Shown here in pieces: positions 43,601 to 64,000 of a DNA stretch of 64,000 bases. Source of the stretch: Brachionus manjavacas (Eukaryota; Rotifera; Eurotatoria; Ploima; Brachionidae). Within the stretch, counting starts at the first letter, position 1, and every line of letters starts with the position of its first letter. The notes beneath the pieces were generated by a model. It searched no databases, was not told the origin of the DNA, and worked only from the letters and a program-made list of their open reading frames with translations. The DNA is taken from the NCBI GenBank assembly GCA_019054805.1, contig JAHQIY010000019.1, forward strand, positions 1,295,494-1,359,493, given 5' to 3'. The position numbers and the translations under genes are program-made.

Positions 43601-46600
43601 CTAAGTGACTGGTAATCACTTGCAAGTTTCCCATGTGCATAACTTTTCGAATCTTTGACCTTTTTTGGTCTGTAAAAGCCAAAGTCAAGAAAATTTCAAG
43701 ATCTATCTAGTGGTATCTTCGGTTTTCCATAATTCGAAAAAATTCATTGCAAAAAACCTATCTGAAATACGTCAAAAAATGGGTTTTTTGCTCATTTTCG
43801 AAGGCGCCTAAAATCTTGTCCTTTTAACTTTTTTGAGTCCTGTAAATTGTATCATGTAGAACTTTTTGCGCTCTTGAATTTGAGCTATTAATCATTATCG
43901 TAGCTAAAAAATTGACCATTCTGCAGTGACTTGAAAACTAAGTGACTGGTAATCACTTGCAAGTTTCCCATGTGCATAACTTTTCGAATCTTTGACCTTT
44001 TTTTGATCTGTAAAAGCTAAAAGCAAGAAAATTTTAAGATCTATCTAGTGGTATCTTCGGTTTTCCATAATTCGAAAAATTCATTGCAAAAAACCTATCT
44101 GAAAAACGTCAAAAAATGGGTTTTTTGCACTTTTTCGAAGGCGCCTAAAATCTTGTCCTTTTAACTTTTTTGAGTCCTGTAAATTGTATCATGTAGAACT
44201 TTTTGCGCTCTTGAATTTGAGCTATTAATCATTATCGTAGCTAAAAAATTGACCATTCTGCAGTGACTTGAAAACTAAGTGACTGGTAATCACTTGCAAG
44301 TTTCCCATGTGCATAACTTTTCGAATCTTTGACCTTTTTTTGATCTGTAAAAGCCAAAGGCAAGAAAAATTTCAAGATCTATCTAGTGGTATCTTCGGTT
44401 TTCCATAATTCGAAAAATTCATTGCAAAAAACCTATCAGAAAATACGTCAAAAAATGGGTTTTTTGCTCATTTTCGAAGGCGCCTAAAATCTTGTCCTTT
44501 AAATTTTTTTGGAGTCCTGTAAATTGTATCATGTAGAACTTTTTGCGCTCTTGAATTTGAGCTATTAATCATTATCGTAGCTAAAAAATTGACCATTCTG
44601 CAGTGACTTGAAAACTAAGTGACTGGTAATCACTTGCAAGTTTCCCATGTGCATAACTTTTCGAATCTTTGACCTTTTTTTGATCTGTAAAAGCCAAAGT
44701 CAAGAAAATTTCAAGATCTATCTAGTGGTATCTTCGGTTTTCCATAATTCGAAAAATTCATTGCTAAAAACCTATCTGAAAAACGTCAAAAAATGGGTTT
44801 TTTGCTCATTTTCGAAGTCGCCTAAAATCTTGTCCTTTTAACTTTTTTGAGTCCTGTAAATTGTATCATGTAGAACTTTTTGGGCTCTTGAATTTGAGCT
44901 ATTAATCATTATCGTAGCTAAAAAATTGACCATTCTGCAGTGACTTGAAAACTAAGTGACTGGTAATCACTTGCAAGTTTCCCATGTGCATAACTTTTCG
45001 AATCTTTGACCTTTTTTTGATCTGTAAAAGCCAAAGTCAAGAAAATTTCAAGATCTATCTAGTGGTATCTTCGGTTTTCCATAATTCGAAAAATTCATTG
45101 CAAAAAACCTATCTGAAATACGTCAAAAAATGGGTTTTTTGCTCATTTTCGAAGGCGCCTAAAATCTTGTCCTTTTAACTTTTTTGAGTCCTGTAAATTG
45201 TATCATGTAGAACTTTTTGCGCTCTTGAATTTGAGCTATTAATCATTATCGTAGCTAAAAAATTGACCATTCTGCAGTGACTTGAAAACTAAGTGACTGG
45301 TAATCACTTGCAAGTTTCCCATGTGCATAACTTTTCGAATCATTTGACCTTTTTTGATCTGTAAAAGCCAAAGTCAAGAAAATTTCAAGATCTATCTAGT
45401 GGTATCTTCGGTTTTCCATAATTCGAAAAATTCATCGCAAAAAACCTATCAGAAAACGTCAAAAAATGGGTTTTTTGCTCATTTTCGAAGGCGCCTAAAA
45501 TCTTGTCCTTTTAACTTTTTTGAGTCCTGTAAATTGTATCATGTAGAACTTTTTGCGCTCTTGAATTTGAGCTATTAATCATTATCGTAGCTAAAAAATT
45601 GACCATTCTGCAGTGACTTGAAAACTAAGTGACTGGTAATCACTTGCAAGTTTCCCATGTGCATAACTTTTCGAATCTTTGACCTTTTTTTGATCTGTAA
45701 AAGCCAAAGTCAAGAAAATTTCAAGATCTATCTAGTGGTATCTTCGGTTTTCCATAATTCGAAAAATTTATTGCAAAAAACCTATCTGAAAAACGTCAAA
45801 AAATGGGTTTTTTGCTCATTTTCGAAGTCGCCTAAAATCTTGTCCTTTTAACTTTTTTGAGTCCTGTAAATTGTATCATGTAGAACTTTTTGGGCTCTTG
45901 AATTTGAGCTATTAATCATTATCGTAGCTAAAAAATTGACCATTCTGCAGTGACTTGAAAACTAAGTGACTGGTAATCACTTGCAAGTTTCCCATGTGCA
46001 TAACTTTTCGAATCTTTGACCTTTTTTGATCTGTAAAAGCCAAAGTCAAGAAAATTTCAAGATCTATCTAGTGGTATCTTCGGTTTTCCATAATTCGAAA
46101 AATTCATTGCAAAAAACCTATCTGAAAAACGTCAAAAAATGGGTTTTTTGCTCATTTTCGAAGTCGCCTAAAATCTTGTCCTTTTAACTTTTTTGAGTCC
46201 TGTAAATTGTATCATGTAGAACTTTTTGCGCTCTTGAATTTGAGCTATTAATCATTATCGTAGCTAAAAATTGACCATTCTGCAGTGACTTGAAAACTAA
46301 GTGACTGGTAATCACTTGCAAGTTTCCCATGTGCATAACTTTTCGAATCTTTGACCTTTTTCGATCTGTAAAAGCCAAAGTCAAGAAAATTTCAAGATCT
46401 ATCTAGTGGTATCTTCGGTTTTCCATAATTCGAAAAATTTATTGCAAAAAACCTATCTGAAAAACGTCAAAAAATGGGTTTTTTGCTCATTTTCGAAGTC
46501 GCCTAAAATCTTGTCCTTTTAACTTTTTTGAGTCCTGTAAATTGTATCATGTAGAACTTTTTGGGCTCTTGAATTTGAGCTATTAATCATTATCGTAGCT

Positions 46601-47338
46601 AAAAAATTGACCATTCTGCAGTGACTTGAAAACTAAGTGACTGGTAATCACTTGCAAGTTTCCCATGTGCATAACTTTTCGAATCTTTGACCTTTTTTTG
46701 ATCTGTAAAAGCCAAAGTCAAGAAAATTTCAAGATCTATCTAGTGGTATCTTCGGTTTTCCATAATTCGAAAAATTCATTGCAAAAAACCTATCTGAAAT
46801 ACGTCAAAAAATGGGTTTTTTGCTCATTTTCGAAGTCGCCTAAAATCTTGTCCTTTTAACTTTTTTGAGTCCTGTAAATTGTATCATGTAGAACTTTTTG
46901 CGCTCTTGAATTTGAGCTATTAATCATTATCGTAGCTAAAAAATTGACCATTCTGCAGTGACTTGAAAACTAAGTGACTGGTAATCACTTGCAAGTTTCC
47001 CATGTGCATAACTTTTCGAATCTTTGACCTTTTTTTGATCTGTAAAAGCCAAAGTCAAGAAAATTTCAAGATCTATCTAGTGGTATCTACGGTTTTCCAT
47101 AATTCGAAAAATTCATTGCAAAAAACCTTTCTGAAAAACGTCAAAAAATGGGTTTTTTGCTCATTTTCGAAGGCGCCTAAAATCTTGTCCTTTTAACTTT
47201 TTTGAGTCCTGTAAATTGTATCATGTAGAACTTTTTGCGCTCTTGAATTTGAGCTATTAATCATTATCGTAGCTAAAAAATTGACCATTCTGCAGTGACT
47301 TGAAAACTAAGTGACTGGTAATCACTTGCAAGTTTCCC
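40637..47338. repeat. Mixed-unit domain before the composite units
   Basis: About 20 simple units carry mixed variants. A tttgggctc form appears in units near 42555, 44885, 45893 and 46563, the last three about three and two units apart. A six-A cgaaaaaattc form first appears near 43,735 and becomes common further right. The unit at about 41311 has a private cluster of changes (ttgttctg, cacaaaaccg, aaaaaatgag). No gene is seen. Confidence 0.8.
43330..43632. repeat. Shortened 303-bp unit with a 33-bp internal deletion
   Basis: At about 43,479 the unit jumps from caaaaaatgg directly to ttgtccttttaac. The usual 33 bases in between, which cover the T6 run, the second TTTTCGAA and the ggcgcc site, are missing. 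One further A is lost in gctaaaaattg. I found no second copy of this deletion, so it is either recent or never amplified. Confidence 0.9.
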
Positions 47339-47828
47339 ATGTGCATAACTTTTCGAATCTTTGACCTTTTTTTGATCTGTAAAAGCCAAAGTCAAGAAAA
47401 TTTCAAGATCTATCTAGTGGTATCTACGGTTTTCCATAATTCGAAAAATTCATTGCAAAAAACATATCTGAAATACGTCAAAAAATAGGTTTTTTGCTCA
47501 TTTTCGAAGTCGCCTAAAACTTTCTTGATCTGTAAAAGCCAAAGTCAAGAAAATTTCAAGATCTATCTAGTGGTATCTTCGGTTTTCCATAATTCGAAAA
47601 ATTCATTGCAAAAAACCTATCTGAAAAACGTCAAAAAATGGGTTTTTTGCTCATTTTCGAAGTCGCCTAAAATCTTGTCCTTTTAACTTTTTTGAGTCCT
47701 GTAAATTGTATCATGTAGAACTTTTTGCGCTCTTGAATTTGAGCTATTAATCATTATCGTAGCTAAAAAATTGACCATTCTGCAGTGACTTGAAAACTAA
47801 GTGACTGGTAATCACTTGCAAGTTTCCC
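47339..47828. repeat. Composite unit 1 (490 bp)
   Basis: The junction is near 47,520, where cctaaaac meets tttcttgatctg. The part before it has tatctacgg, aacatatctg and aaaaaatagg. The same three variants precede the junction of composite unit 2, so the two are copies 1,842 bp apart. This one alone has a C inside the T run. Confidence 0.9.
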
Positions 47829-49180
47829 ATGTGCATAACTTTTCGAATCTTTGACCTTTTTTGGTCTGTAAAAGCCAAAGTCAAGAAAATTTCAAGATCT
47901 ATCTAGTGGTATCTTCGGTTTTCCATAATTCGAAAAAATTCATTGCAAAAAACCTATCTGAAATACGTCAAAAAATGGGTTTTTTGCTCATTTTCGAAGG
48001 CGCCTAAAATCTTGTCCTTTTAACTTTTTTGAGTCCTGTAAATTGTATCATGTAGAACTTTTTGCGCTCTTGAATTTGAGCTATTAATCATTATCGTAGC
48101 TAAAAATTGACCATTCTGCAGTGACTTGAAAACTAAGTGACTGGTAATCACTTGCAAGTTTCCCATGTGCATAACTTTTCGAATCTTTGACCTTTTTTTG
48201 GATCTGTAAAAGCCAAAGTCAAGAAAATTTCACGATCTATCTAGTGGTATCTTCGGTTTTCCATAATTCGAAAAAATTCATTGCAAAAAAACCTATCTGA
48301 AATACGTCAAAAAATGGGTTTTTTGCTCATTTTCGAAGTCGCCTAAAATCTTGTCCTTTTAACTTTTTTGAGTCCTGTAAATTGTATCATGTAGAACTTT
48401 TTGCGCTCTTGAATTTGAGCTTTTAATCATTATCGTAGCTAAAAAATTGACCATTTTGCAGTGACTTGAAAACTAAGTGACTGGTAATCACTTGCAAGTT
48501 TCCCATGTGCATAACTTTTCGAATCTTTGACCTTTTTTTGATCTGTAAAAGCCAAAGGCAAGAAAAATTTCAAGATCTATCTAGTGGTATCTTCGGTTTT
48601 CCATAATTCGAAAAATTCATTGCAAAAAACCTATCTGAAAAACGTCAAAAAATGGGTTTTTTGCTCATTTTCGAAGGCGCCTAAAATCTTGTCCTTTTAA
48701 CTTTTTTGAGTCCTGTAAATTGTATCATGTAGAACTTTTTGCGCTCTTGAATTTGAGCTATTAATCATTATCGTAGCTAAAAAATTGACCATTCTGCAGT
48801 GACTTGAAAACTAAGTGACTGGTAATCACTTGCAAGTTTCCCATGTGCATAACTTTTCGAATCTTTGACCTTTTTTTTGATCTGTAAAAGCCAAAGTCAA
48901 GAAAATTTCAAGATCTATCTAGTGGTATCTACGGTTTTCCATAATTCAAAATATTCATTGCAAAAAACCTTTCTGAAAAACGTCAAAAAATGGGTTTTTT
49001 GCTCATTTTCGAAGTCGCCTAAAATCTTGTCCTTTTAACTTTTTTGAGTCCTGTAAATTGTATCATGTAGAACTTTTTGCGCTCTTGAATTTGAGCTATT
49101 AATCATTATCGTAGCTAAAAAATTGACCATTCTGCAGTGACTTGAAAACTAAGTGACTGGTAATCACTTGCAAGTTTCCC

Positions 49181-49672
49181 ATGTGCATAACTTTTCGAAT
49201 CTTTGACCTTTTTTTTGATCTGTAAAAGCCAAAGTCAAGAAAATTTCAAGATCTATCTAGTGGTATCTACGGTTTTCCATAATTCGAAAAATTCATTGCA
49301 AAAAACATATCTGAAATACGTCAAAAAATAGGTTTTTTGCTCATTTTCGAAGTCGCCTAAAACTTTTTTTGATCTGTAAAAGCCAAAGTCAAGAAAATTT
49401 CACGATCTATCTAGTGGTATCTTCGGTTTTCCATAATTCGAAAAATTCATTGCAAAAAACATATCTGAAATACGTCAAAAAATAGGTTTTTTGCTCATTT
49501 TCGAAGTCGCCTAAAATCTTGTCCTTTTAACTATTCTGAGTCCTGTAAATTGTATCATGTAGAACTTTTTGCGCTCTTGAATTTGAGCTATTAATCATTA
49601 TCGTAGCTAAAAAATTGACCATTCTGCAGTGACTTGAAAACTAAGTGACTGGTAATCACTTGCAAGTTTCCC
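49181..49672. repeat. Composite unit 2 (492 bp)
   Basis: The junction is near 49,363 (cctaaaac then a run of T and gatctg). The second part also carries aacatatctg and aaaaaatagg, then actattctgag near 49,531, a marker found again only near 54,044. Confidence 0.9.
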
Positions 49673-50350
49673 ATGTGCATAACTTTTCGAATCTTTGACC
49701 TTGTTTTGATCTGTAAAAGCCAAAGTCAAGAAAATTTCAAGATCTATCTAGTGGTATCTTCGGTTTTCCATAATTCGAAAAATTCATTGCAAAAAACCTA
49801 TCTGAAAAACGTCAAAAAATGGGTTTTTGCTCATTTTCGAAGGCGCCTAAAATCTTGTCCTTTTAACTTTTTTGAGTCCTGTAAATTGTATCATGTAGAA
49901 CTTTTTTGGGCTCTTGAATTTGAGCTATTAATCATTATCGTAGCTAAAAAATTGGACCATTCTGCAGTGACTTGAAAACTAAGTGACTGGTAATCACTTG
50001 CAAGTTTCCCATGTGCATAACTTTTCGAATCTTTGACCTTGTTTTGATCTGTAAAAGCCAAAGTCAAGAAAATTTCAAGATCTATCTAGTGGTATCTTCG
50101 GTTTTCCATAATTCGAAAAATTCATTGCATAAAACCTATCTGAAAAACGTCAAAAAATGGGTTTTTTGCTCATTTTCGAAGTCGCCCTAAAAATCTTGTC
50201 CCTTTTAACTTTTTTGAGTCCTGTAAATTGTATCATGTAGAACTTTTTGGGCTCTTGAATTTGAGCTATTAATCATTATCGTAGCTAAAAAATTGACCAT
50301 TCTGCAGTGACTTGAAAACTAAGTGACTGGTAATCACTTGCAAGTTTCCC
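49364..50350. repeat. Segmental duplication, left copy (offset 4,513 bp)
   Basis: actattctgag (49531), ccttgttttg (49701 and 50039) and ttcattgcataaaacc (50121) recur at exactly +4,513 bp (54044, 54214, 54552, 54634). An identical offset at four rare markers shows one block copied as a unit. The left copy has extra single-base insertions near 49,905, 49,952 and 50,185-50,202. Confidence 0.8.
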
Positions 50351-50687
50351 ATGTGCATAACTTTTCGAATCTTTGACCTTTTTTTGATCTGTAAAAGCCA
50401 AAGTCAAGAAAATTTCAAGATCTATCTAGTGGTATCTTCGGTTTTCCATAATTCGAAAAATTCATTGCAAAAAACCTTTCTGAAAAACGTCAAAAAATGG
50501 GTTTTTTGCTCATTTTCGAAGTCGCCTAAAATCTTGTCCTTTTAACTTTTTTGAGTCCTGTAAATTGTATCATGTAGTTCTTTTTGCGCTCTTGAATTTG
50601 AGCTATTAATCATTATCGTAGCTAAAAAATTGACCATTCTGCAGTGACTTGAAAACTAAGTGACTGGTAATCACTTGCAAGTTTCCC

Positions 50688-51180
50688 ATGTGCATAACTT
50701 TTCGAATCTTTGACCTTTTTTTGATCTGTAAAAGCCAAAGTCAAGAAAATTTCAAGATCTATCTAGTGGTATCTACGGTTTTCCATAATTCGAAAAATTC
50801 ATTGCAAAAAACCTTTCTGAAAAACGTCAAAAAATGGGTTTTTTTGCTCATTTTCGAAGTCGCCTAAAACTTTTTTTGATCTGTAAAAGCCAAAGTCAAG
50901 AAAATTTCACGATCTATCTAGTGGTATCTTCGGTTTTCCATAATTCGAAAAAATTCATTGCAAAAAACCTATCTGAAAAACGTCAAAAAATGGGTTTTTT
51001 GCTCATTTTCGAAGTCGCCTAAAATCTTGTCCTTTTAACTTTTTTGAGTCCTGTAAATTGTATCATGTAGAACTTTTTGCGCTCTTGAATTTGAGCTATT
51101 AATCATTATCGTAGCTAAAAAATTGACCATTCTGCAGTGAATTGAAAACTAAGTGACTGGTAATCACTTGCAAGTTTCCC
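50688..51180. repeat. Composite unit 3 (493 bp)
   Basis: The junction is near 50,870. tatctacgg and cctttctg precede it, and cacgatc with cgaaaaaattc follows. It matches composite unit 4 at an offset of about 2,180 bp. Confidence 0.9.
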
Positions 51181-52191
51181 ATGTGCATAACTTTTCGAAT
51201 CTTTGACCTTTTTTTGATCTGTAAAGCCAAAGTCAAGAAAATTTCAAGATCTATCTAGTGGTATCTTCGGTTTTCCATAATTCGAAAAATTCATTGCAAA
51301 AAACCTATCTGAAATACGTCAAAAAATGGGTTTTTTGCTCATTTTCGAAGTCGCCTAAAATCTTGTCCTTTTAACTTTTTTGAGTCCTGTAAATTGTATC
51401 ATGTAGAACTTTTTGCGCTCTTGAATTTGAGCTATTAATCATTATCGTAGCTAAAAAATTGACCATTCTGCAGTGAATTGAAAACTAAGTGACTGAAAAT
51501 CACTTGCAAAGTTCCCATGTGCATAACTTTTCGAATCTTTGACCTTTTTTTGATCTGTAAAAGCCAAAGTCAAGAAAATTTCAAGATCTATCTAGTGGTA
51601 TCTTCGGTTTTCCATAATTCGAAAAATTCATTGCAAAAAACCTTTCTGAAAAACGTCAAAAAATGGGTTTTTTGCTCATTTTCGAAGTCGCCTAAAATCT
51701 TGTCCTTTTAACTTTTTTGAGTCCTGTAAATTGTATCATGTAGAACTTTTTGCGCTCTTGAATTTGAGCTATTAATCATTATCGTAGCTAAAAAATTGAC
51801 CATTCTGCAGTGACTTGAAAACTAAGTGACTGGTAATCACTTGCAAGTTTCCCATGTGCATAACTTTTCGAATCTTTGACCTTTTTTTGATCTGTAAAGG
51901 CCAAAGGCAAGAAAATTTCAAGATCTATCTAGTGGTATCTTCGGTTTTCCATAATTCGAAAAATTCATTGCAAAAAAACTTATCTGAAAAACGTCAAAAA
52001 ATGGGTTTTTTGCTCTTTTTCGAAGTCGCCTAAAATCTTGTCCTTTTAACTTTTTTGACTCCTGTGAATTGTATCATGTAGAACTTTTTGCGCTCTTGAA
52101 TTTGAGCTATTAATCATTATCGTAGCTAAAAAATTGACCATTCTGCAGTGACTTGAAAACTAAGTGACTGGTAATCACTTGCAAGTTTCCC

Positions 52192-53357
52192 ATGTGCATA
52201 ACTTTTCGAATCTTTTACCTTTTTTTGATCTGTAAAAGCCAAAGTCAAGAAAATTTCAAGATCTATCTAGTGGTATCTTCGGTTTTCCATAATTCGAAAA
52301 ATTCATTGCATAAAACCTATCTGAAAAACGTCAAAAAATGGGTTTTTTGCTCATTTTCGAAGTCGCCTAAAATCTTGTCCTTTTAACTTTTTTGAGTCCT
52401 GTAAATTGTATCATGTAGAACTTTTTGGGCTCTTGAATTTGAGCTATTAATCATTATCGTAGCTAAAAAATTGACCATTCTGCAGTGACTTGAAAACTAA
52501 GTGACTGGTAATCACTTGCAAGTTTCCCATGTGCATAACTTTTCGAATCTTTGACCTTTTTTTGATCTGTAAAAGCCAAAGTCAAGAAAATTTCAAGATC
52601 TATCTAGTGGTATCTTCGGTTTTCCATAATTCGAAAAATTCATTGCAAAAAACCTTTCTGAAAAACGTCAAAAAATGGGTTTTTTTGCTCATTTTCGAAG
52701 GCGCCTAAAATCTTGTCCTTTTAACTTTTTTGAGTCCTGTAAATTGTATCATGTAGTTCTTTTTGCGCTCTTGAATTTGAGCTATTAATCATTATCGTAG
52801 CTAAAAATTTGACCATTCTGCAGTGTCTTGAAAACTAAGTGACTGGTAATCACTTGCAAGTTTCCCATGTGCATAAGATTTTCGAATCTTTGACCTTTTT
52901 TTGATCTGTAAAAGCCAAAGGCAAGAAAATTCCAAGATCTATCTAGTGGTATCTTCGGATTCCATAATTCGAAAAATTCATTGCAAAAAACCTATCTGAA
53001 AAACGTCAAAAAATGGGTTTTTTGCTCATTTTCGAAGTCGCCTAAAACTTTTTTTGATCTGTAAAAGCCAAAGTCAAGAAAATTTCACGATCTATCTAGT
53101 GGTATCTTCGGTTTTCCATAATTCGAAAAATTCATTGCAAAAAACCTATCTGAAAAACGTCAAAAAATGGGTTTTTTGCTCATTTTCGAAGTCGCCTAAA
53201 ATCTTGTCCTTTTAACTTTTTTGAGTCCTGTAAATTGTATCATGTAGAACTTTTTGCGCTCTTGAATTTGAGCTATTAATCATTATCGTAGCTAAAAAAT
53301 TGACCATTCTGCAGTGACTTGAAAACTAAGTGACTGGTAATCACTTGCAAGTTTCCC
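52192..53357. repeat. Segmental duplication partner of ~50,013-51,180 (offset about 2,180 bp)
   Basis: The order cattgcataaaacc, tttgggctc, cctttctg, gtagttcttt, composite junction, cacgatc appears at about 50121, 50249, 50477, 50577, 50870 and 50909. It appears again at about 52303, 52427, 52654, 52756, 53048 and 53087. Offsets are 2,177-2,182 bp, consistent with one copied block of composite plus five ordinary units and later single-base indels. Confidence 0.75.
52867..53357. repeat. Composite unit 4 (491 bp)
   Basis: The junction is near 53,048 and is followed by cacgatc as in unit 3. The first part has private changes: cataagattttcg, aaattccaag and cttcggattcc. Confidence 0.9.
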
Positions 53358-53695
53358 ATGTGCATAACTTTTCGAATCTTTGACCTTTTTTTGATCTGTA
53401 AAAGCCAAAGTCAAGAAAATTTCAAGATCTATCTAGTGGTATCTACGGTTTTCCATAATTCCGAAAAATTCATTGCAAAAAACCTTTCTGAAAAACGTCA
53501 AAAAATGGGTTTTTTGCTCATTTTCGAAGGCGCCTAAAATCTTGTCCTTTTAACTTTTTTGAGTCCTGTAAATTGTATCATGTAGAACTTTTTGCGCTCT
53601 TGAATTTGAGCTATTAATCATTATCGTAGCTAAAAAATTGACCATTCTGCAGTGACTTGAAAACTAAGTGACTGGTAATCACTTGCAAGTTTCCC

Positions 53696-54185
53696 ATGTG
53701 CATAACTTTTCGAATCTTTGACCTTTTTTGATCTGTAAAAGCCAAAGTCAAGAAAATTTCAAGATCTATCTAGTGGTATCTACGGTTTTCCATAATTCGA
53801 AAAATTCATTGCAAAAAACCTTTCTGAAAAACGTCAAAAAATGGGTTTTTTGCTCATTTTCGAAGTCGCCTAAAACTTTTTTTGATCTGTAAAAGCCAAA
53901 GTCAAGAAAATTTCAAGATCTATCTAGTGGTATCTTCGGTTTTCCATAATTCGAAAAATTCATTGCAAAAAACATATCTGAAATACGTCAAAAAATAGGT
54001 TTTTTGCTCATTTTCGAAGTCGCCTAAAATCTTGTCCTTTTAACTATTCTGAGTCCTGTAAATTGTATCATGTAGAACTTTTTGCGCTCTTGAATTTGAG
54101 CTATTAATCATTATCGTAGCTAAAAAATTGACCATTCTGCAGTGACTTGAAAACTAAGTGACTGGTAATCACTTGCAAGTTTCCC
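53696..54185. repeat. Composite unit 5 (490 bp)
   Basis: The junction is near 53,876. The second part carries aacatatctg, aaaaaatagg and actattctgag exactly as in composite unit 2, at an offset of 4,513 bp. Confidence 0.9.
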
Positions 54186-54860
54186 ATGTGCATAACTTTT
54201 CGAATCTTTGACCTTGTTTTGATCTGTAAAAGCCAAAGTCAAGAAAATTTCAAGATCTATCTAGTGGTATCTTCGGTTTTCCATAATTCGAAAAATTCAT
54301 TGCAAAAAAACCTATCTGAAAAACGTCAAAAAATGGGTTTTTTGCTCATTTTCGAAGGCGCCTAAAATCTTGTCCTTTTAACTTTTTTGAGTCCTGTAAA
54401 TTGTATCATGTAGAACTTTTTGGGCTCTTGAATTTGAGCTATTAATCATTATCGTAGCTAAAAAATTGACCATTCTGCAGTGACTTGAAAACTAAGTGAC
54501 TGGTAATCACTTGCAAGTTTCCCATGTGCATAACTTTTCGAATCTTTGACCTTGTTTTGATCTGTAAAAGCCAAAGTCAAGAAAATTTCAAGATCTATCT
54601 AGTGAGATCTTCGGTTTTCCATAATTCGAAAAATTCATTGCATAAAACCTATCTGAAAAACGTCAAAAAATGGGTTTTTTGCTCATTTTCGAAGTCGCCT
54701 AAAATCTTGTCCTTTTAACTTTTTTGAGTCCTGTAAATTGTATCATGTAGAACTTTTTGGGCTCTTGAATTTGAGCTATTAATCATTATCGTAGCTAAAA
54801 AATTGACCATTCTGCAGTGACTTGAAAACTAAGTGACTGGTAATCACTTGCAAGTTTCCC
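53877..54860. repeat. Segmental duplication, right copy (offset 4,513 bp)
   Basis: This partner of 49364-50350 holds the same order of rare markers. Its right end runs up to the unit that carries the scrambled segment. A private change, tagtgagatc, lies near 54,600. Confidence 0.8.
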
Positions 54861-55014
54861 ATGTGCATAACTTTTCGAATCTTTGACCTTTTTTTTGATC
54901 TGTAAAAGCCAAAGTCAAGAAAATTTCAAGATCTATCTAGTGGTATCTTCGGTTTTCCATAATTCGAAAAATTCATTGCATAAAACCTATCTGAAAAACA
55001 TCAAAAAATGGGTT

Positions 55015-55156
55015 ATTTGTATCATTTCTATCTGAAAAACATCAAAAAATGGCTCATCATCTATAATTCGAAAACCTATCTGAAATACTATGGGTATCAT
55101 GCGAAAAAATTCATTGCAAACTTTTTGCGCTCTTGAATTTGTAAATTTTAGGCGAC
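55015..55156. other. Scrambled patchwork of short satellite fragments
   Basis: Normal order breaks after caaaaaatgggtt. Recognisable pieces follow out of order: a second copy of tctgaaaaacatcaaaaaat (55,031-55,050) 41 bases after the first; ctataattcgaaaa fused to cctatctgaaatac; a gtatcatg piece; cgaaaaaattcattgcaaa; ctttttgcgctcttgaattt; and an inverted piece, ttttaggcgac. The private aacatc change is in both copies of the duplicated piece, so one was copied from the other nearby. Ordered short pieces with one inversion fit replication template switching; misassembly is the main alternative. Confidence 0.85.
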
Positions 55157-55177
55157 ATTTTCGAAGTCGCCTAAAAT
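55145..55177. repeat. Perfect 12-bp inverted repeat with 9-base loop
   Basis: attttaggcgac (55145-55156) and gtcgcctaaaat (55166-55177) are exact reverse complements around attttcgaa. The right arm is ordinary unit sequence and the left arm is its inverted copy, so the hairpin was created by the rearrangement. It is the only clear inverted satellite fragment found in the window. Confidence 0.9.
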
Positions 55178-55649
55178 CTTTTTTTGATCTGTAAAAGCCA
55201 AAGTCAAGAAAATTTCAAGATCTATCTAGTGGTATCTTCGGTTTTCCATAATTCGAAAAAATTCATTGCAAAAAACCTATCTGAAATACGTCAAAAAATG
55301 GGTTTTTTGCTCATTTTCGAAGTCGCCTAAAATCTTGTCCTTTTAACTTTTTTGAGTCCTGTAAATTGTATCATGTAGAACTTTTTGCGCTCTTGAATTT
55401 GAGCTATTAATCATTATCGTAGCTAAAAAATTGACCATTTTGCAGTGACTTGAAAACTAAGTGACTGGTAATCACTTGCAAGTTTCCCATGTGCATAACT
55501 TTTCGAATCTTTTACCTTTTTTTGATCTGTAAAAGCCAAAGTCAAGAAAATTTCAAGATCTATCTAGTGGTATCTTCGGTTTTCCATAATTCGAAAAAAT
55601 TCATTGCAAAAAACCAATCTGAAATACGTCAAAAAATGGTTTTTTTGCT

Positions 55650-55870
55650 CATTTTCGAAGTCGCCTAAAATCTTGTCTTTTTAACTTTTTTGAGTCCTGC
55701 TCAAATTGTATCATGTAGAACTTTTTGCGCTCTAGAATTTGAGCTATTAAACATTATCGTAGCTAAAAAATTGACCGTTCTGCAGTGACTTAGAAAACTT
55801 AGTGACTGGTAATCACTTGCAAGTTTCCCATGTACGTAAACATACCAAATCTGACCTTTTTTTTGATCTG
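55650..55870. repeat. Strongly diverged satellite unit
   Basis: The unit keeps the standard order but has clustered private changes: gtcctgctcaaattg near 55,694, cgctctagaattt, attaaacattat, gaccgttctgcag, and gacttagaaaacttag near 55,788. The normal stretch between catgtg and tctttgacc is replaced by catgtacgtaaacatacc at about 55,829-55,846. It lies about 0.5 kb from the scrambled segment and looks unhomogenised. Confidence 0.85.
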
Positions 55871-56503
55871 TAAAAGCCAAAGTCAAGAAAATTTCAAGAT
55901 CTATCTAGTGGTATCTTCGGTTTTCCATAATTCGAAAAAATTCATTGCAAAAAACCTATCTGAAATACGTCAAAAAATGGGTTTTTTGCTCATTATCGAA
56001 GTCGCCTAAAATTTTGTCCTTTTAATTTTTTTGAGTCTTGTAAATTGTATCATGTAGAACTTTTTGCGCTCTTGAATTTGAGCTATTAATCATTATCGTA
56101 GCTAAAAAATTGACCATTTTGCAGTGACTTGAAAACTAAGTGACTGGTAATCACTTGCAAGTTTCCCATGTGCATAACTTTTCGAATCTTTGACCTCTTT
56201 TTGATCTGTAAGAGCCAAAGTCAAGAAAATTTCAAGATCTATCTAGTGGTATCTTCGGTTTTCCATAATTCGAAAAATTCATCGCAAAAACCTATCTGAA
56301 AAACGTCAAAAAATGGGTTTTTTGCTCATTTTCGAAGTCGCCTAAAATCTTGTCCTTTTAACTTTTTTGAGTCCTGTAAATTGTATCATGTAGAACTTTT
56401 TGCGCTCTTGAATTTGAGCTATTAATCATTATCGTAGCTAAAAAATTGACCATTTTGCAGTGACTTGAAAACTAAGTGACTGGTAATCACTTGCAAGTTT
56501 CCC

Positions 56504-56996
56504 ATGTGCATAACTTTTCGAATCTTTGACCTTTTTTTGATCTGTAAAAGCCAAAGTCAAGAAAATTTCAAGATCTATCTAGTGGTATCTTCGGTTTTCT
56601 ATAATTCGAAAAATTCATTGCAAAAAACCTATCTGAAATACGTCAAAAAATGGGTTTTTTGCTCATTTTCGAAGTCGCCTAAAATCTTTTTTTGATCTGT
56701 AAAAGCCAAAGTCAAGAAAATTTCAAGATCTATCTAGTGGTATCTTCGGTTTTCCATAATTCGAAAAAATTCATTGCAAAAAACCTATCTGAAAAACGTC
56801 AAAAAATGGGTTTTTTGCTCATTTTCGAAGTCGCCTAAAATCTTTTCCTTTTAACTTTTTTGGAGTCCTGTAAATTGTATCATGTAGAACTTTTTGCGCT
56901 CTTGAATTTGAGCTATTAATTATTATCGTAGCTAAAAAATTGACCATTTTGCAGTGACTTGAAACTAAGTGACTGGTAATCACTTGCAAGTTTCCC
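56504..56996. repeat. Composite unit 7 (493 bp)
   Basis: The junction is near 56,685 (cctaaaat then ctttttttgatctg). The first part carries ttttctataattcg and gaaatacg and matches the first part of composite unit 10 at 61350 closely. Confidence 0.9.
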
Positions 56997-59692
56997 ATGT
57001 GCATAACTTTTCGAATCTTTGACCTTTTTTTGATCTGTAAAAGCCAAAGTCAAGAAAATTTCAAGATCTATCTAGTGGTATCTTCGGTTTTCTATAATTC
57101 GAAAAATTCATTGCAAAAAACTATCTGAAAAACGTCAAAAAATGGGTTTTTTGCTCATTTTCGAAGTCGCCTAAAATCTTGTCCTTTTAACTTTTTTGAG
57201 TCCTGTAAATTGTATCATGTAGAACTTTTTGCGCTCTTGAATTTGAGCTATTAATCATTATCGTAGCTAAAAAATTGACCATTCTGCAGTGACTTGAAAA
57301 CTAAGTGACTGGTAATCACTTGCAAGTTTCCCATGTGCATAACTTTTCGAATCTTTTACCTTTTTTGATCTGTAAAAGCCAAAGTCAAGAAAAAATTTCA
57401 AGATCTATCTAGTGGTATCTTCGGTTTTCTATAATTCGAAAAATTCATTGCAAAAAACCTATCTGAAATACGTCAAAAAATGGGTTTTTTGCTCATTTTC
57501 GAAGTCGCCTAAAATCTTGTCCTTTTAACTTTTTTGAGTCCTGTAAATTGTATCATGTAGAACTTTTTGCGCTCTTGAATTTGAGCTATTAATCATTATC
57601 GTAGCTAAAAAATTGACCATTTTGCAGTGACTTGAAAACTAAGTGACTGGTAATCACTTGCAAGTTTCCCATGTGCATAACTTTTCTAATCTTTGACCTT
57701 TTTTTGATCTGTAAAAGCCAAAGTCAAGAAAATTTCAAGATCTATATAGTGGTATCTTCAATTTTCCATAATTCGAAAAATTCATTGCAAAAAACCTATC
57801 TGAAAAACGTCAAAAAATGGGTTTTTTGCTCATTTTCGAAGTAGCCTAAAATCTTGTCCTTTTAACTTTTTTGAGTCCTGTAAATTGTATCATGTAGAAC
57901 TTTTTGCGCTCTTGAATTTGAGCTATTAATCATTATCGTAGCTAAAAAATTGACCATTTTGCAGTGACTTGAAACTAAGTGACTGGTAATCACTTGCAAG
58001 TTTCCCATGTGCATAACTTTTCGAATCTTTGACCTTTTTTGGATCTGTAAAAGCCAAAGTCAAGAAAATTTCAAGATCTATCTAGTGGTATCTTCGGTTT
58101 TCCATAATTCGAAAAAATTCATTGCAAAAAACCTATCTGAAATACGTCAAAAAATGGGTTTTTTGCTCATTTTCGAAGTAGCCTAAAATCTTGTCCTTTT
58201 AACTTTTTTGAGTCCTGTAAATTGTATTATGTAGAACTTTTTGCGCTCTTGAATTTTAGCTATTAATCATTATCGTAGCTAAAAAATTGACCATTTTGCA
58301 GTGACTTGAAAACTAAGTGACTGGTAATCACTTGCAAGTTTCCCATGTGCATAACTTTTCGAATCTTTGACCTTTTTTTGATCTGTAAAAGCCAAAGTCA
58401 AGAAAATTTCAAGATCTATCTAGTGGTATCTTCGGTTTTCCATAATTCGAAAAAATCATTGCAAAAAACCTATCTGAAAAACGTCAAAAATGGTTTTTTT
58501 GCTCATTTTCGAAGTCGCCTAAAATCTTGTCCTTTTAACTTTTTTGAGTCCTGTAAATTGTATCATGTAGAACTTTTTTCGCTCTTGAATTTGAGCTATT
58601 AATCATTATCGTAGCTAAAAAATTGACCATTTTGCAGTGACTTGAAACTAAGTGACTGGTAATCACTTGCAAGTTTCCCATGTGCATAACTTTTCGAATC
58701 TTTGACCTTTTTTTTGATCTGTAAAAGCCAAAGTCAAGAAAATTTCAAGATCTATCTAGTGGTATCTTCGGTTTTCCATAATTCGAAAAATTCATTGCAA
58801 AAAACCTATCTGAAAAACGTCAAAAAATGGGTTTTTTGCTCATTTTCGAAGTCGCCTAAAATCTTGTCCTTTTAACTTTTTTGAGTCCTGTAAATTGTAT
58901 CATGTAGAACTTTTTGCGCTCTTGAATTTGAGCTATTAATCATTATCGTAGCTAAAAAATTGACCATTTTGCAGTGACTTGAAAACTAAGTGACTGGTAA
59001 TCACTTGCAAGTTTCCCATGTGCATAACTTTTCGAATCTTTGACCTTTTTTTGATCTGTAAAAGCCAAAGTCAAGAAAATTTCAAGATCTATCTAGTGGT
59101 ATCTTCGGTTTTCCATAATTCGAAAAAATTCATTGCAAAAAACCTATCTGAAAACGTCAAAAAATGGGTTTTTTGCTCATTTTCGAAGTCGCCTAAAATC
59201 TTGTCCTTTTAACTTTTTTGAGTCCTGTAAATTGTATCATGTAGAACTTTTTGCGCTCTTGAATTTGAGCTATTAATCCTTATCGTAGCTAAAAAATTGA
59301 CCATTCTTTAGTGACTTGAAAACTAAGTGACTGGTAATCACTTGCAAGTTTCCCATGTGCATAACTTTTCGAATTTTTGACCTTTTTTTGATCTGTAAAA
59401 GCCAAAGTCAAGAAAATTTCAAGATCTATCTAGTGGTATCTTCGGTTTTCCATAATTCGAAAAAATTCATTGCAAAAAACCTATCTGAAATACGTCAAAA
59501 AATGGGTTTTTTGCTCATTTTCGAAGTCGCCTAAAATCTTGTCCTTTTAACTTTTTTGACTCCTGTAAATTGTATCATGTAGAACTTTTCACGCTCTTGA
59601 ATTTGAGCAGTTAATCATTATCGTAGCTAAAAAATTGACCATTTTGCAGTGACTTGAAAACTAAGTGACTGGTAATCACTTGCAAGTTTCCC

Positions 59693-60185
59693 ATGTGCAT
59701 AACTTTTCGAATCTTTGACCTTTTTTTGATCTGTAAAAGCCAAAGTCAAGAAAATTTCAAGATCTATCTAGTGGTATCTTCGGTTTTCCATAATTCGAAA
59801 AAATTCATTGCAAAAAACCTATCTGAAATACGTCAAAAAATGGGTTTTTTGCTCATTTTCGAAGTCGCCTAAAATCTTTTTTTGATCTGTAAAAGCCAAA
59901 GTCAAGAAAATTTCAAGATCTATCTAGTGGTATCTTCGGTTTTCCATAATTCGAAAAATTCATTGCAAAAAACCTATCTGAAATACGTCAAAAAATGGGT
60001 TTTTTGCTCATTATCGAAGTCGCCTAAAATTTTGTCCTTTTAATTTTTTTGAGTCTTGTAAATTGTATCATGTAGAACTTTTTGCGCTCTTGAATTTGAG
60101 CTATTAATCATTATCGTAGCTAAAAAATTGACCATTTTGCAGTGACTTGAAAACTAAGTGACTGGTAATCACTTGCAAGTTTCCC
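59693..60185. repeat. Composite unit 8 (493 bp)
   Basis: The junction is near 59,876. The second part has cattatcg and aaaattttgtcc, shared with composite unit 9 and with a simple unit near 55,991. Confidence 0.9.
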
Positions 60186-60521
60186 ATGTGCATAACTTTT
60201 CGAATCTTTGGCCTTTTTTTGATCTGTAGAAGCCAAAGTCAAGAAAATTTCAAGATCTATCTAGTGGTATCTTCGGTTTTCTATAATTCGAAAAATTCAT
60301 TGCAAAAAACCTATCTGAAATACGTCAAAAAATGGGTTTTTTGCTCATTTTCGAAGTCGCCTAAAATCTTGTCCTTTTAACTTTTTTGAGTCCTGTAAAT
60401 TGTATCATGTAGAACTTTTTGCGCTCTTGAATTTGAGCTATTAATCATTATCGTAGCTAAAAAATTGACCATTTTGCAGTGACTTGAAACTAAGTGACTG
60501 GTAATCACTTGCAAGTTTCCC

Positions 60522-61015
60522 ATGTGCATAACTTTTCGAATCTTTGACCTTTTTTTGATCTGTAAAAGCCAAAGTCAAGAAAATTTCAAGATCTATCTAG
60601 TGGTATCTTCGGTTTTCCATAATTCGAAAAAATTCATTGCAAAAAACCTATCTGAAATACGTCAAAAAATGGGTTTTTTGCTCATTTTCGAAGTCGCCTA
60701 AAATCTTTTTTTGATCTGTAAAAGCCAAAGTCAAGAAAATTTCAAGATCTATCTAGTGGTATCTTCGGTTTTCCATAATTCGAAAAAATTCATTGCAAAA
60801 AACCTATCTGAAATACGTCAAAAAATGGGTTTTTTGCTCATTATCGAAGTCGCCTAAAATTTTGTCCTTTTAACTTTTTTGAGTCTTGTAAATTGTATCA
60901 TGTAGAACTTTTTGCGCTCTTGAATTTGAGCTATTAATCATTATCGTAGCTAAAAAATTGACCATTTTGCAGTGACTTGAAAACTAAGTGACTGGTAATC
61001 ACTTGCAAGTTTCCC
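60522..61015. repeat. Composite unit 9 (494 bp)
   Basis: The junction is near 60,705. Both parts carry gaaatacg and cgaaaaaattc. The second part repeats the cattatcg marker of unit 8. Confidence 0.9.
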
Positions 61016-61349
61016 ATGTGCATAACTTTTCGAATCTTTAACTTTTTTTGATCTGTAAAAGCCAAAGTCAAGAAAATTTCAAGATCTATCTAGTGGTATC
61101 TTCGGTTTTCCATAATTCGAAAAATTCATTGCAAAAAACCTATCTGAAATACGTCAAAAAATGGGTTTTTTGCTCATTTTCGAAGTCGCCTAAAATCTTG
61201 TCCTTTTAACTTTTTTGAGTCCTGTAAATTGTATCATGAAGAACTTTGCGCTCTTGAATTTGAGCTATTAATCATTATCGTAGCTAAAAAATTGACCATT
61301 TTGCAGTGACTTGAAAACTAAGTGACTGGTAATCACTTGCAAGTTTCCC

Positions 61350-61842
61350 ATGTGCATAACTTTTCGAATCTTTGACCTTTTTTTGATCTGTAAAAGCCAA
61401 AGTCAAGAAAATTTCAAGATCTATCTAGTGGTATCTTCGGTTTTCTATAATTCGAAAAATTCATTGCAAAAAACCTATCTGAAATACGTCAAAAAATGGG
61501 TTTTTTGCTCATTTTCGAAGTCGCCTAAAATCTTTTTTTGATCTGTAAAAGCCAAAGTCAAGAAAATTTCAAGATCTATCTAGTGGTATCTTCGGTTTTC
61601 CATAATTCGAAAAAATTCATTGCAAAAAACCTATCTGAAATACGTCAAAAAATGGGTTTTTTGCTCATTTTCGAAGTCGCCTAAAATCTTGTCCTTTTAA
61701 CTTTTTTGAGTCCTGTAAATTGTATCATGTAGAACTTTTTGCGCTCTTGAATTTGAGCTATTAATCATTATCGTAGCTAAAAAATTGACCATTTTGCAGT
61801 GACTTGAAAACTAAGTGACTGGTAATCACTTGCAAGTTTCCC
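61350..61842. repeat. Composite unit 10 (493 bp)
   Basis: The junction is at 61,531-61,532. The first part matches composite unit 7 through the junction, an offset of 4,846 bp, and the second part lacks the cattatcg marker. Confidence 0.9.
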
Positions 61843-62516
61843 ATGTGCATAACTTTTCGAATCTTTGACCTTTTTTTGATCTGTAAAAGCCAAAGTCAAG
61901 AAAATTTCAAGATCTATCTAGTGGTATCTTCGGTTTTCTATAATTCAGAAAAATTCATTGCAAAAAACCTATCTGAAATACGTCAAAAAATGGGTTTTTT
62001 GCTCATTTTCGAAGTCGCCTAAAATCTTGTCCTTTTAACTTTTTTGAGTCCTGTAAATTGTATCATGTAGAACTTTTTGCGCTCTTGAATTTGAGCTATT
62101 AATCATTATCGTAGCTAAAAAATTGACCATTCTGCAGTGACTTGAAAACTAAGTGACTGGTAATCACTTGCAAGTTTCCCATGTGCATAACTTTTCGAAT
62201 CTTTGACCTTTTTTGGATCTGTAAAAGCCAAAGTCAAGAAAATTTCAAGATCTATCTAGTGGTATCTTCGGTTTTCCATAATTCGAAAAATTCATTGCAA
62301 AAACCTATCTGAAATACGTCAAAAAATGGGTTTTTTGCTCATTTTCGAAGTCGCCTAAAATCTTGTCCTTTTAACTTTTTTGAGTCCTGTAAATTGTATC
62401 ATGTAGAACTTTTTGCGCTCTTGAATTTGAGCTATTAATCATTATCGTAGCTAAAAAATTGACCATTCTGCAGTGAATTGAAAACTAAATGACTGGTAAT
62501 CACTTGCAAGTTTCCC

Positions 62517-63010
62517 ATGTGCATAACTTTTCTAATCTTTGACCTTTTTTTGATCTGTAAAAGCCAAAGTCAAGAAAATTTCAAGATCTATCTAGTGGTA
62601 TCTTCGGTTTTCCATAATTCGAAAAATTCATTGCAAAAAACCTATCTGAAATACGTCAAAAAATGGGTTTTTTGCTCATTTTCGAAGTCGCCTAAAATCT
62701 TTTTTTTGATCTGTAAAAGCCAAAGTCAAGAAAATTTCAAGATCTATCTAGTGGTATCTTCGGTTTTCCATAATTCGAAAAAATTCATTTCAAAAAACCT
62801 ATCTGAAAAACGTCAAAAAATGGGTTTTTTGCTCTTTTTCGAAGTCGCCTAAAAACTTGTCCTTTTAATTTTTTTGACTCTTGTAAATTGTATCATGTAG
62901 AACTTTTTGCGCTCTTGAATTTGAGCTATTAATCATTATCGTAGCTAAAAAATTGACCATTTTGCAGTGACTTGAAAACTAAGTGACTGGTAATCACTTG
63001 CAAGTTTCCC
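62517..63010. repeat. Composite unit 11 (494 bp)
   Basis: The junction is near 62,699 with one extra T. The join happens to keep an open frame of 111 codons (62517-62852), the longest in the window, made by fusing two copies of the same repeat frame. It is not evidence of a gene. Confidence 0.9.
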
Positions 63011-64000
63011 ATGTGCATAACTTTTCGAATCTTTGACCTTTTTTGTAATGCAAGAGCCAAAGTCAAGAAAATTTCAAGATCTATCTAGTGGTATCTTCGG
63101 TTTTCTATTATTCGAAAAAATTCATTGCAAAAAACCTATCTGAAATACGTCAAAAAATGGGTTTTTTGCTCATTTTCGAAGTCGCCTAAAATCTTGTCCT
63201 TTTAACTTTTTTGAGTCCTGTAAATTGTATCATGTAGAACTTTTTGCGCTCTTGAATTTGAGCTATTAATCATTATCGTAGCTAAAAAATTGACCATTTT
63301 GCAGTGACTTGAAACTAAGTGACTGGTAATCACTTGCAAGTTTCCCATGTGCATAACTTTTCGAATCTTTGTTCTTTTTAGATCTGTAAAAGCCAAAGTC
63401 AAGAAAATTTCAAGATCTATCTAGTGGTATCTTCGGTTTTCCATAATTCGAAAAATTCATTGCAAAAAACCTATCTGATATACGTCAAAAAATGGGTTTT
63501 TTGCTCTTTTTCGAAGTCGCCTAAAATCTTGTCCTTTTAACTTTTTGAGTCTTGTAAAATTGTATCATGTGTAGAACTTTTGCGCTCTTGAATTTGAGCT
63601 GTGTCATTATCGTAGCTAAAAAATTGACCATTCTGCAGTGACTTGAAAACTAAGTGACTGGTAATCACTTGCAAGTGTCCCATGTGCATAACTTTTCGAA
63701 TCTTTGACCTTTTTTGGATCTGTAAGAGCCAAAGTCAAGAAAATTTCAAGATCTATCTAGTGTTATCTTCGGTTTTCCATAATTCGAAAAATTCATTGCA
63801 AAAAATTCTATCTGAAAAACGTCAAAAAATGGGTTTTTTGCTCTTTTTCGAAGTCGCCTAAAATCTTGTCCTTTTAACTTTTTTGAGTCCTGTAAATTGT
63901 ATCATGTAGAACTTTTTGCGCTCTTGAATTTGAGCTATTAAACATTATCGTAGCTAGAAAATTGACCATTTTGCAGTGACTTGAAAACAAAGTGACTGGT
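63011..64000. repeat. Most diverged units at the right end of the window
   Basis: Private changes accumulate here: ttttttgtaatgcaagagcc (63,042), tttgttctttttagatctg (63,369), gtaaaattgtatcatgtgtag (63,555), gagctgtgtcattatcg (63,596), gcaagtgtcccatg (63,672) and aaaaaattctatctg (63,800). Satellite arrays usually homogenise least at their edges, so an array boundary may lie not far to the right. That is an inference. Confidence 0.7.

Follow-up and report, generated by a model that had tools for sequence, protein, structure and literature searches.

Sharply different neighbouring domains of a satellite array are usually ascribed to unequal exchange, which leaves no mark. Scars of break repair have been described in other settings. 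The available part of the account of Pol-theta scars ('delins') in C. elegans describes iterated short templated inserts and snap-back copies (PMC5068794). According to the same excerpt, the worm templated inserts were shorter than 25 bases overall, most of their templates lay no more than 20 bases from the break, and one flank only was used by 16 of the 17 complex inserts (PMC5068794). In the portions available of two reports on MMBIR and chromoanasynthesis, microhomology was found at most joins, for example at 138 of 155 (PMC8421209, PMC13065848). Short foldback copies are made at yeast breaks, the other end being joined at an overlap of 0-5 bases, in the part of the study at hand (PMC11724301). 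Neither a patchwork scar between two satellite domains nor four strings of the satellite analysed here were found in the literature searched, which included the available parts of PMC4857426, PMC2853522 and PMC11724301 and had subscription journals and preprints outside its scope.

The window, that is, the whole stretch of DNA analysed, spans C19:1295494-1359493, the terminal 64 kb of a contig that ends at 1359493, in an assembly of 114 Mb and 61 contigs. Positions are those of the window, and features lie on the + strand unless stated otherwise. One satellite with a 337-base unit fills the whole window, and Tandem Repeats Finder rows covered everything in it but 55028-55177. The array is regular from 1 to about 43480 (domain A) and composite from 43480 onward, where 337-base units are accompanied by short units of about 155 bases that lack phases about 147-333 of the full unit. 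Ten short units are normal (152-156 bases, spanning 47371-62707) and one, at 54897, has 289 bases. The left composite domain (B, 43480..55014) holds five of the normal short units, and the right composite domain (C, 55156..64000) is marked by ATTTTGCAG in 17 units, with the alternative in 4, and by GGCGCC in 0 of 26 scored units. The short units end in TAAAAC in the left five and in TAAAATC in the right five. Two short-unit junction patterns, searched in the genome, matched C19 alone (5 and 4 matches), the patterns missing 2 of the 11 short units through indel differences. At the A/B border, at 43480, there is a single 302-base unit with about 34 bases deleted (phases about 115-148).

Related satellite was found at or near the ends of at least nine contigs (C1, C2, C5, C9, C11, C14, C16, C17 and C25), and single satellite matches lay inside C1 and C6, among the matches listed. 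The arrays at C16:1-10000 and C2:1-20000 are nearly homogeneous, and arrays differ between contigs by contig-specific variants; ATTTTGCAG is present in 30 of 30 units scored on C16. At the left edge of the C19 array (L001 2789-5200) there are five units of 413-417 bases, and the four of these that were aligned carry an 81-base insertion resembling an internal duplication. Short units of 92-93 bases among normal units at C25:893001-902000 (L022) represent a second short form of the satellite. The C5 array changes strand at 15753-15980 (L017 5753-5980); this inversion has its breaks at unit phases of about 106 and 142, near the breakpoints of the insert described below. Fragments resembling reverse transcriptase and gypsy-like polyprotein were seen by eye in the frames listed for L005 2552-3469 and L009 1398-3877. 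In Brachionus asplanchnoidis the satellites have monomers of 154 and 143 bases and a GC peak of 37%, and by this description, from the part of the source available, they differ in unit length or GC. Exact searches for the nematode telomere run and for the SL1 leader gave no match.

The 289-base short unit is interrupted by a scrambled insert of 141 bases (55015..55155), which replaces about 7 bases (TTTTGCT) of the unit; alignment with the ten normal short units gave a net gain of 134 bases (289 vs 155). A preliminary description, made from the window alone, had proposed about 140 bases of reordered satellite pieces at this place, the only such site in 64 kb, and both statements held. In a forward 12-mer phase scan, seven blocks start within the 200 bases from 55001, five of them in the insert, followed by the right flank and the short-unit join. 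More than two block starts occurred in just five of 1280 windows scanned, all at 54901-55101. Elsewhere the forward scan showed the 34-base deletion (43480), the joins of the ten normal short units and five T-run matches of 12-15 bases, which fall at or near unit joins. In the corresponding scan of the reverse strand, the matches were short and scattered, with no more than 3 per 200 bases in any of the ten windows listed.

Two further measures indicated that the insert is built from copies of other sequence beyond chance. It could be written as 14 exact-match factors from the rest of the window, both strands included, compared with at least 20 for each of 300 Markov-random sequences, and exact 13-mers from the rest of the window covered 77% of it (300 random sequences: mean 0.01, maximum 0.21). 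Among 453 tiles of the window the factor count was 15 at the scramble and 12 at tile 55696, the next being 8. In ten other satellite loci of 10 kb (710 tiles) the top tile had 7 factors; the eight top tiles listed for an eleventh locus, L019 (22 factors each), precede its satellite and are hence uninformative, and L014 and L022-L025 were outside the factor scan. Two diagnostic joins, searched with up to 3 mismatches, gave one match each in the assembly, at the scramble itself, and thus no second copy of the scramble was found with these two patterns. A 16-mer across another join, AAACTTTTTGCGCTCT, is also present in the C14 array. The insert is best read, from its composition, as a putative scar of template-switching or templated repair.

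Six strong pieces of 14-25 bases (b, d, e, g, h and j) lie out of order within the insert, together with weak pieces of 6-9 bases. The left part of the interrupted short unit (54897..55014) carries CATTGCATAAAACC and ends in ATGGGTT. It is followed by the weak piece TTGTATCAT (55017..55025), from the part of the unit that is missing in short units, and by piece b (55028..55052, 25 bases), a copy of the left flank at a 41-base offset whose sole donor in the window, with AACATC, is 54987..55011. AACATCAAAAAATGG accordingly occurs twice in the window, at 54997 and 55038. The next are the weak piece GCTCAT (55052..55057, from exact-match factorisation); piece d, TCTATAATTCGAAAA (55060..55074), with five window donors, all in the right domain; and piece e, AAAACCTATCTGAAATAC (55071..55088), which overlaps d by 4 bases and has 30, 6 and 18 donors in domains A, B and C. 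Two further weak pieces from the factorisation, ATGGGT and GTATCATG, occupy 55090..55101. Piece g (55102..55120) is the six-A variant CGAAAAAATTCATTGCAAA. Piece h, AACTTTTTGCGCTCTTGAATTTG (55119..55141), again from the unit part missing in short units, has 93, 22 and 18 donors in A, B and C, and the weak piece TTGTAAATT (55139..55147) has 8, 0 and 4. Piece j (55143..55156, - strand) is inverted, and its window donors, at 56001, 60019 and 60849, are all in the right domain. The right flank (55156..55185) is the end of a right-type short unit with the junction TAAAATCTTTTTTT, which recurs in five short units of the right domain.

The inverted piece and the duplicate at 41-base spacing had both been noted in the preliminary description and were recovered here. 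The AACATC change of the duplicate, which it had called private, is so within the window, but not genome-wide, since it occurs once more in the array at the end of C1, as AACATCAAAA. Of the two variants claimed as typical of the right domain, TCTATAATTCGAAAA is confined to it in the window (0, 0 and 5 donors in A, B and C), whereas CGAAAAAATTCATTGCAAA is enriched there without being exclusive (0, 4 and 12). In the whole genome, a longer form of piece d had 17 matches, 5 of them on C19, and a longer form of piece j had 4 matches, 3 on C19 and 1 on C5. A further occurrence of the inversion of piece j on C5, suggested by a 14-mer of the segment in L011, was rejected, because the 14-mer belongs to a forward-oriented unit that carries a base change.

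Within the window, the closest donors lie 1.4 kb (d) and 0.85 kb (j) away. One right-domain stretch of 0.5 kb, 59796-60294, contains d, e, g, h, i and j together, so that a single right-type stretch of this size would suffice as their source. Piece h and TTGTATCAT belong to the unit part that short units lack, which suggests that a full unit served as template. A 12-base inverted repeat, ATTTTAGGCGAC / GTCGCCTAAAAT (55145..55177, loop 9), is formed by the inverted piece j and the right flank, which could pair over these 12 bases as a hairpin; an inverted repeat as long was present in 2 of 300 Markov sequences, and the stretch with the repeat folded better than 200 of 200 shuffles (z -3.0).

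The position of the insert relative to the two composite domains was assessed with the 54 full-length units from 43660 on, using the presence of variable 14-mers (149 distinct patterns) and comparing 47 splits that each left at least 4 units per side. The best split, with a gain of 387, separates the unit that starts at 54559 from the one that starts at 55186 and coincides exactly with the position of the scramble; the next-best gains, 349 and 344, belong to the adjoining splits, and the maximum of 500 permutations was 282. The border location proposed earlier was therefore supported more strongly than it had been claimed. ATTTTGCAG was found once on the left (alternative 30) and 17 times on the right (alternative 4), and GGCGCC 12 times on the left (24) and 0 on the right (26). 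Two other variants did not separate the sides by themselves: GCATAAAAC (3 left, 0 right, p 0.25) and CCTAAAACTT (5 left, 0 right, p 0.073). The marker of the left flank, CATTGCATAAAACC, is found elsewhere in the window just at 50123, 52304 and 54636 (3 left, 0 right, Fisher p 0.25), and the short junction of the right flank is shared by 5 of 5 right-domain short units vs 0 of 5 on the left. Within the insert, the left-derived piece (b) comes first and the right-type or right-enriched pieces (d, g, j) follow. The best split at the scramble, together with this left-to-right order, suggests that the patch is the seam itself.

An import of domain C from another chromosome was considered and rejected. 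Neither the six-A variant nor CTGAAATACG was present on C16 (0 of 29 each); on C17, where 14 of 14 units have ATTTTGCAG, the six-A variant was scored in 0 of 14 (CTGAAATACG not being scorable there). Because of these mismatches, and because the short-unit junctions were matched on C19 only, an origin inside the composite array of C19 itself is the simpler assumption.

Based on these sequence features, it is suggested, with a probability of about 0.6, that two diverged parts of the 337-base satellite array on C19 were brought together in one event of template-switching repair. Within a short unit of the left domain, a fork or a double-strand end would have stopped at the ATGGGTT that ends the left flank. 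The end would then have recopied its own flank, of which the 25-base AACATC duplicate is present in the sequence, and next a series of pieces of 15-23 bases, several of them of right type; the variants and their order can be read directly, and the copying process is the probable cause. Right-type sequence, copied by folding back or from the opposite strand, may have supplied the last piece and with it the hairpin that is observed, after which the end would have been joined into a right-type short unit, the junction of which is present. The one-event reading was favoured because it needs the fewest steps, and it is supported by the coverage of the insert with pieces, the unique joins, the exact border, the types of the flanks, the order of the pieces, the hairpin and the likeness to published scars. 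It is weakened by join overlaps that do not exceed chance, by a left marker that is weak alone (p 0.25) and by the distances of 1.4 and 0.85 kb to the donors of d and j, which need long single-stranded ends or later turnover of the array. It is also weakened by the apparent use of both flanks, unlike in most complex worm inserts, and by being a single event, seen in one assembly, 8.8 kb from the contig end. The donors need not be local, since right-type markers occur on other contigs and AACATC once on C1.

The agent of the switching could be a Pol-theta-like or synthesis-dependent end joining, towards which we lean, or replicative template switching (MMBIR/FoSTeS), in which a collapsed fork would have switched repeatedly among nearby units, copied one of them inverted and resumed in right-type sequence. 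The latter, which is a sub-case of the preferred explanation with a different enzyme, is considered possible, though the less probable of the two. Both short pieces of 14-25 bases with apparent iterated priming and a 12-base fold-back, as in Pol-theta joining, and inverted and reordered copies from several templates, as in MMBIR/FoSTeS, were found. The lean towards Pol-theta-like joining comes from the short pieces and the terminal fold-back, the piece lengths being at the short end of the range for MMBIR/FoSTeS; the donor distances (1.4 and 0.85 kb) fit MMBIR better. The many short pieces, one of them inverted, with donors possibly kilobases apart, would also be consistent with it. Present donor distances are weak evidence, because arrays turn over.

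The joins, at which the preliminary description had asked for microhomology to be scored, do not separate the two. Strong pieces, or a strong piece and the flank, are in direct contact at three joins, d/e, g/h and j/right flank, where the overlaps are 4, 2 and 1 bases; an overlap of at least one base at each direct join would be in favour of replicative template switching. One base separates h from j, and at the other joins weak pieces or single unmatched bases intervene. Random flush joins of the satellite had a mean overlap of 1.08 bases, and three of them summed to at least 7 in 9% of trials (P about 0.09), the null joins being drawn from the composite domains only and the observed overlaps measured against the whole window. 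In an AT-rich repeat, overlaps not above chance decide nothing on the mechanism, and microhomology as proof of MMBIR was rejected on the same figure. From the mechanism named at the outset, MMBIR/FoSTeS, the template switching was thus retained and the specific label was not.

To the right of the scar, the unit 55524..55864 carries clustered private changes that are possibly connected with it, as seen by alignment to the consensus and with 13-mers. It departs from the consensus 23 times, with clustered substitutions and small indels among the changes; 16 of these differences lie in 13-mers unique within the window and the other satellite loci compared, and a stretch of 30 bases in it had no other match in the genome with up to 3 mismatches. 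These changes begin 0.45 kb right of the scar. A cluster 0.45-0.7 kb downstream would fit error-prone synthesis during replicative template switching, against which stands the absence of private changes from the unit in between (55186-55523).

The same neighbour bears on the possibility of an assembly, amplification or consensus artefact, namely a chimeric or low-quality molecule, or a consensus of misaligned reads, near the contig end. This was judged unlikely. The contig does end inside the array, 8.8 kb downstream of the scar, and private clusters, each a group of 15-mers that occur once in the window and the other satellite loci compared, become denser along it, with about 1 per kb for domain A, about 4 per kb for domain C (56-63 kb) and 12 for the last kb. 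The count for that last kb (63001-64000) is a possible sign of thin read support. The kb that holds the scar and its anomalous neighbour, the unit 55524-55864, has 14 private clusters. The first kb of C5, also satellite, has 10 and that of C1 has 1, although C5 and C1 are diverged subfamilies in which such counts are hard to read. In contrast, a single private cluster was counted in the first 20 kb of C2 and none in the first 10 kb of C16, so that contig ends are not uniformly poor. The pieces are exact 14-25-mers in a coherent left-to-right subfamily order, which makes base-calling error an unlikely source, and many units support the change of satellite type at this position.

A stepwise origin, in which small slippages, duplications and an inversion accumulated at an unstable unit and the border is coincidental or marks where exchange stops, is improbable. 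In its favour, other independent rearrangements do occur in the satellite (the 34-base deletion, the short units, and 81- and 48-base insertions elsewhere). Against it, no partial form was seen: 1 of 131 16-mers from the segment and its margins that the rest of the window lacks was found in other satellite loci, and no window tile besides those of the scar and its neighbour exceeded 8 factors.

Beyond the single event, it can be proposed tentatively that template-switching break repair is able to make borders between satellite domains, besides unequal crossing-over, with a scar that orients the join, and that breaks may favour unit phases about 91-148. These phases hold a 10-base inverted repeat, GCAAAAAACC/GGTTTTTTGC, and contain breakpoints of the scramble, the 34-base deletion, one end of the short-unit deletion, the C5 array inversion and one end of the 93-base unit of C25. 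A break hotspot at this hairpin was rejected as a result and kept only as an idea: 8 of 16 breakpoints (eight rearrangements) lie in phases 91-148, an interval chosen afterwards, in a count that left out small deletions at phases 130-134 in L001. A repeat as long was present in 5.7% of 300 Markov sequences, folding of the whole unit gave z -1.1, and the left arm is mismatched (GCATAAAACC) in the very unit that broke. A scar exactly on a domain border would be direct evidence that template-switching repair also builds arrays, and the question of how borders arise would become testable across every domain border in complete assemblies; a single event in one assembly is an example, not a rule.

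The scar may be compared with the known systems as far as the available parts of the reports describe them. Like the junctions of rye subtelomeric satellites, for which microhomology-driven repair has been proposed, it lies at an array border (PMC4857426). The rye borders are with transposable elements and the repair was deduced from motifs, no two-domain patchwork being seen in the part of the report available (PMC4857426). With the yeast foldback insertions it shares a short inverted copy of sequence beside the break, but here the copy belongs to a longer patchwork, and folding back in cis is not required to explain it (PMC11724301). The patchwork from several templates with an inverted copy resembles human MMBIR insertions (PMC8421209) and chromoanasynthesis (PMC13065848), as excerpted; unlike in these, the overlaps at its three direct joins do not exceed chance, and the likeness is one of sequence. 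The resemblance to the Pol-theta scars of C. elegans, as described in the portion available, extends to iterated short inserts, some stretches of more than 20 bases, single-base overlaps and snap-back (PMC5068794). The present scar is unlike those in its length of 141 bases, in the apparent use of both flanks and in its place inside a satellite (PMC5068794). It is most likely a known kind of repair event, which here would mark the border between two satellite domains.
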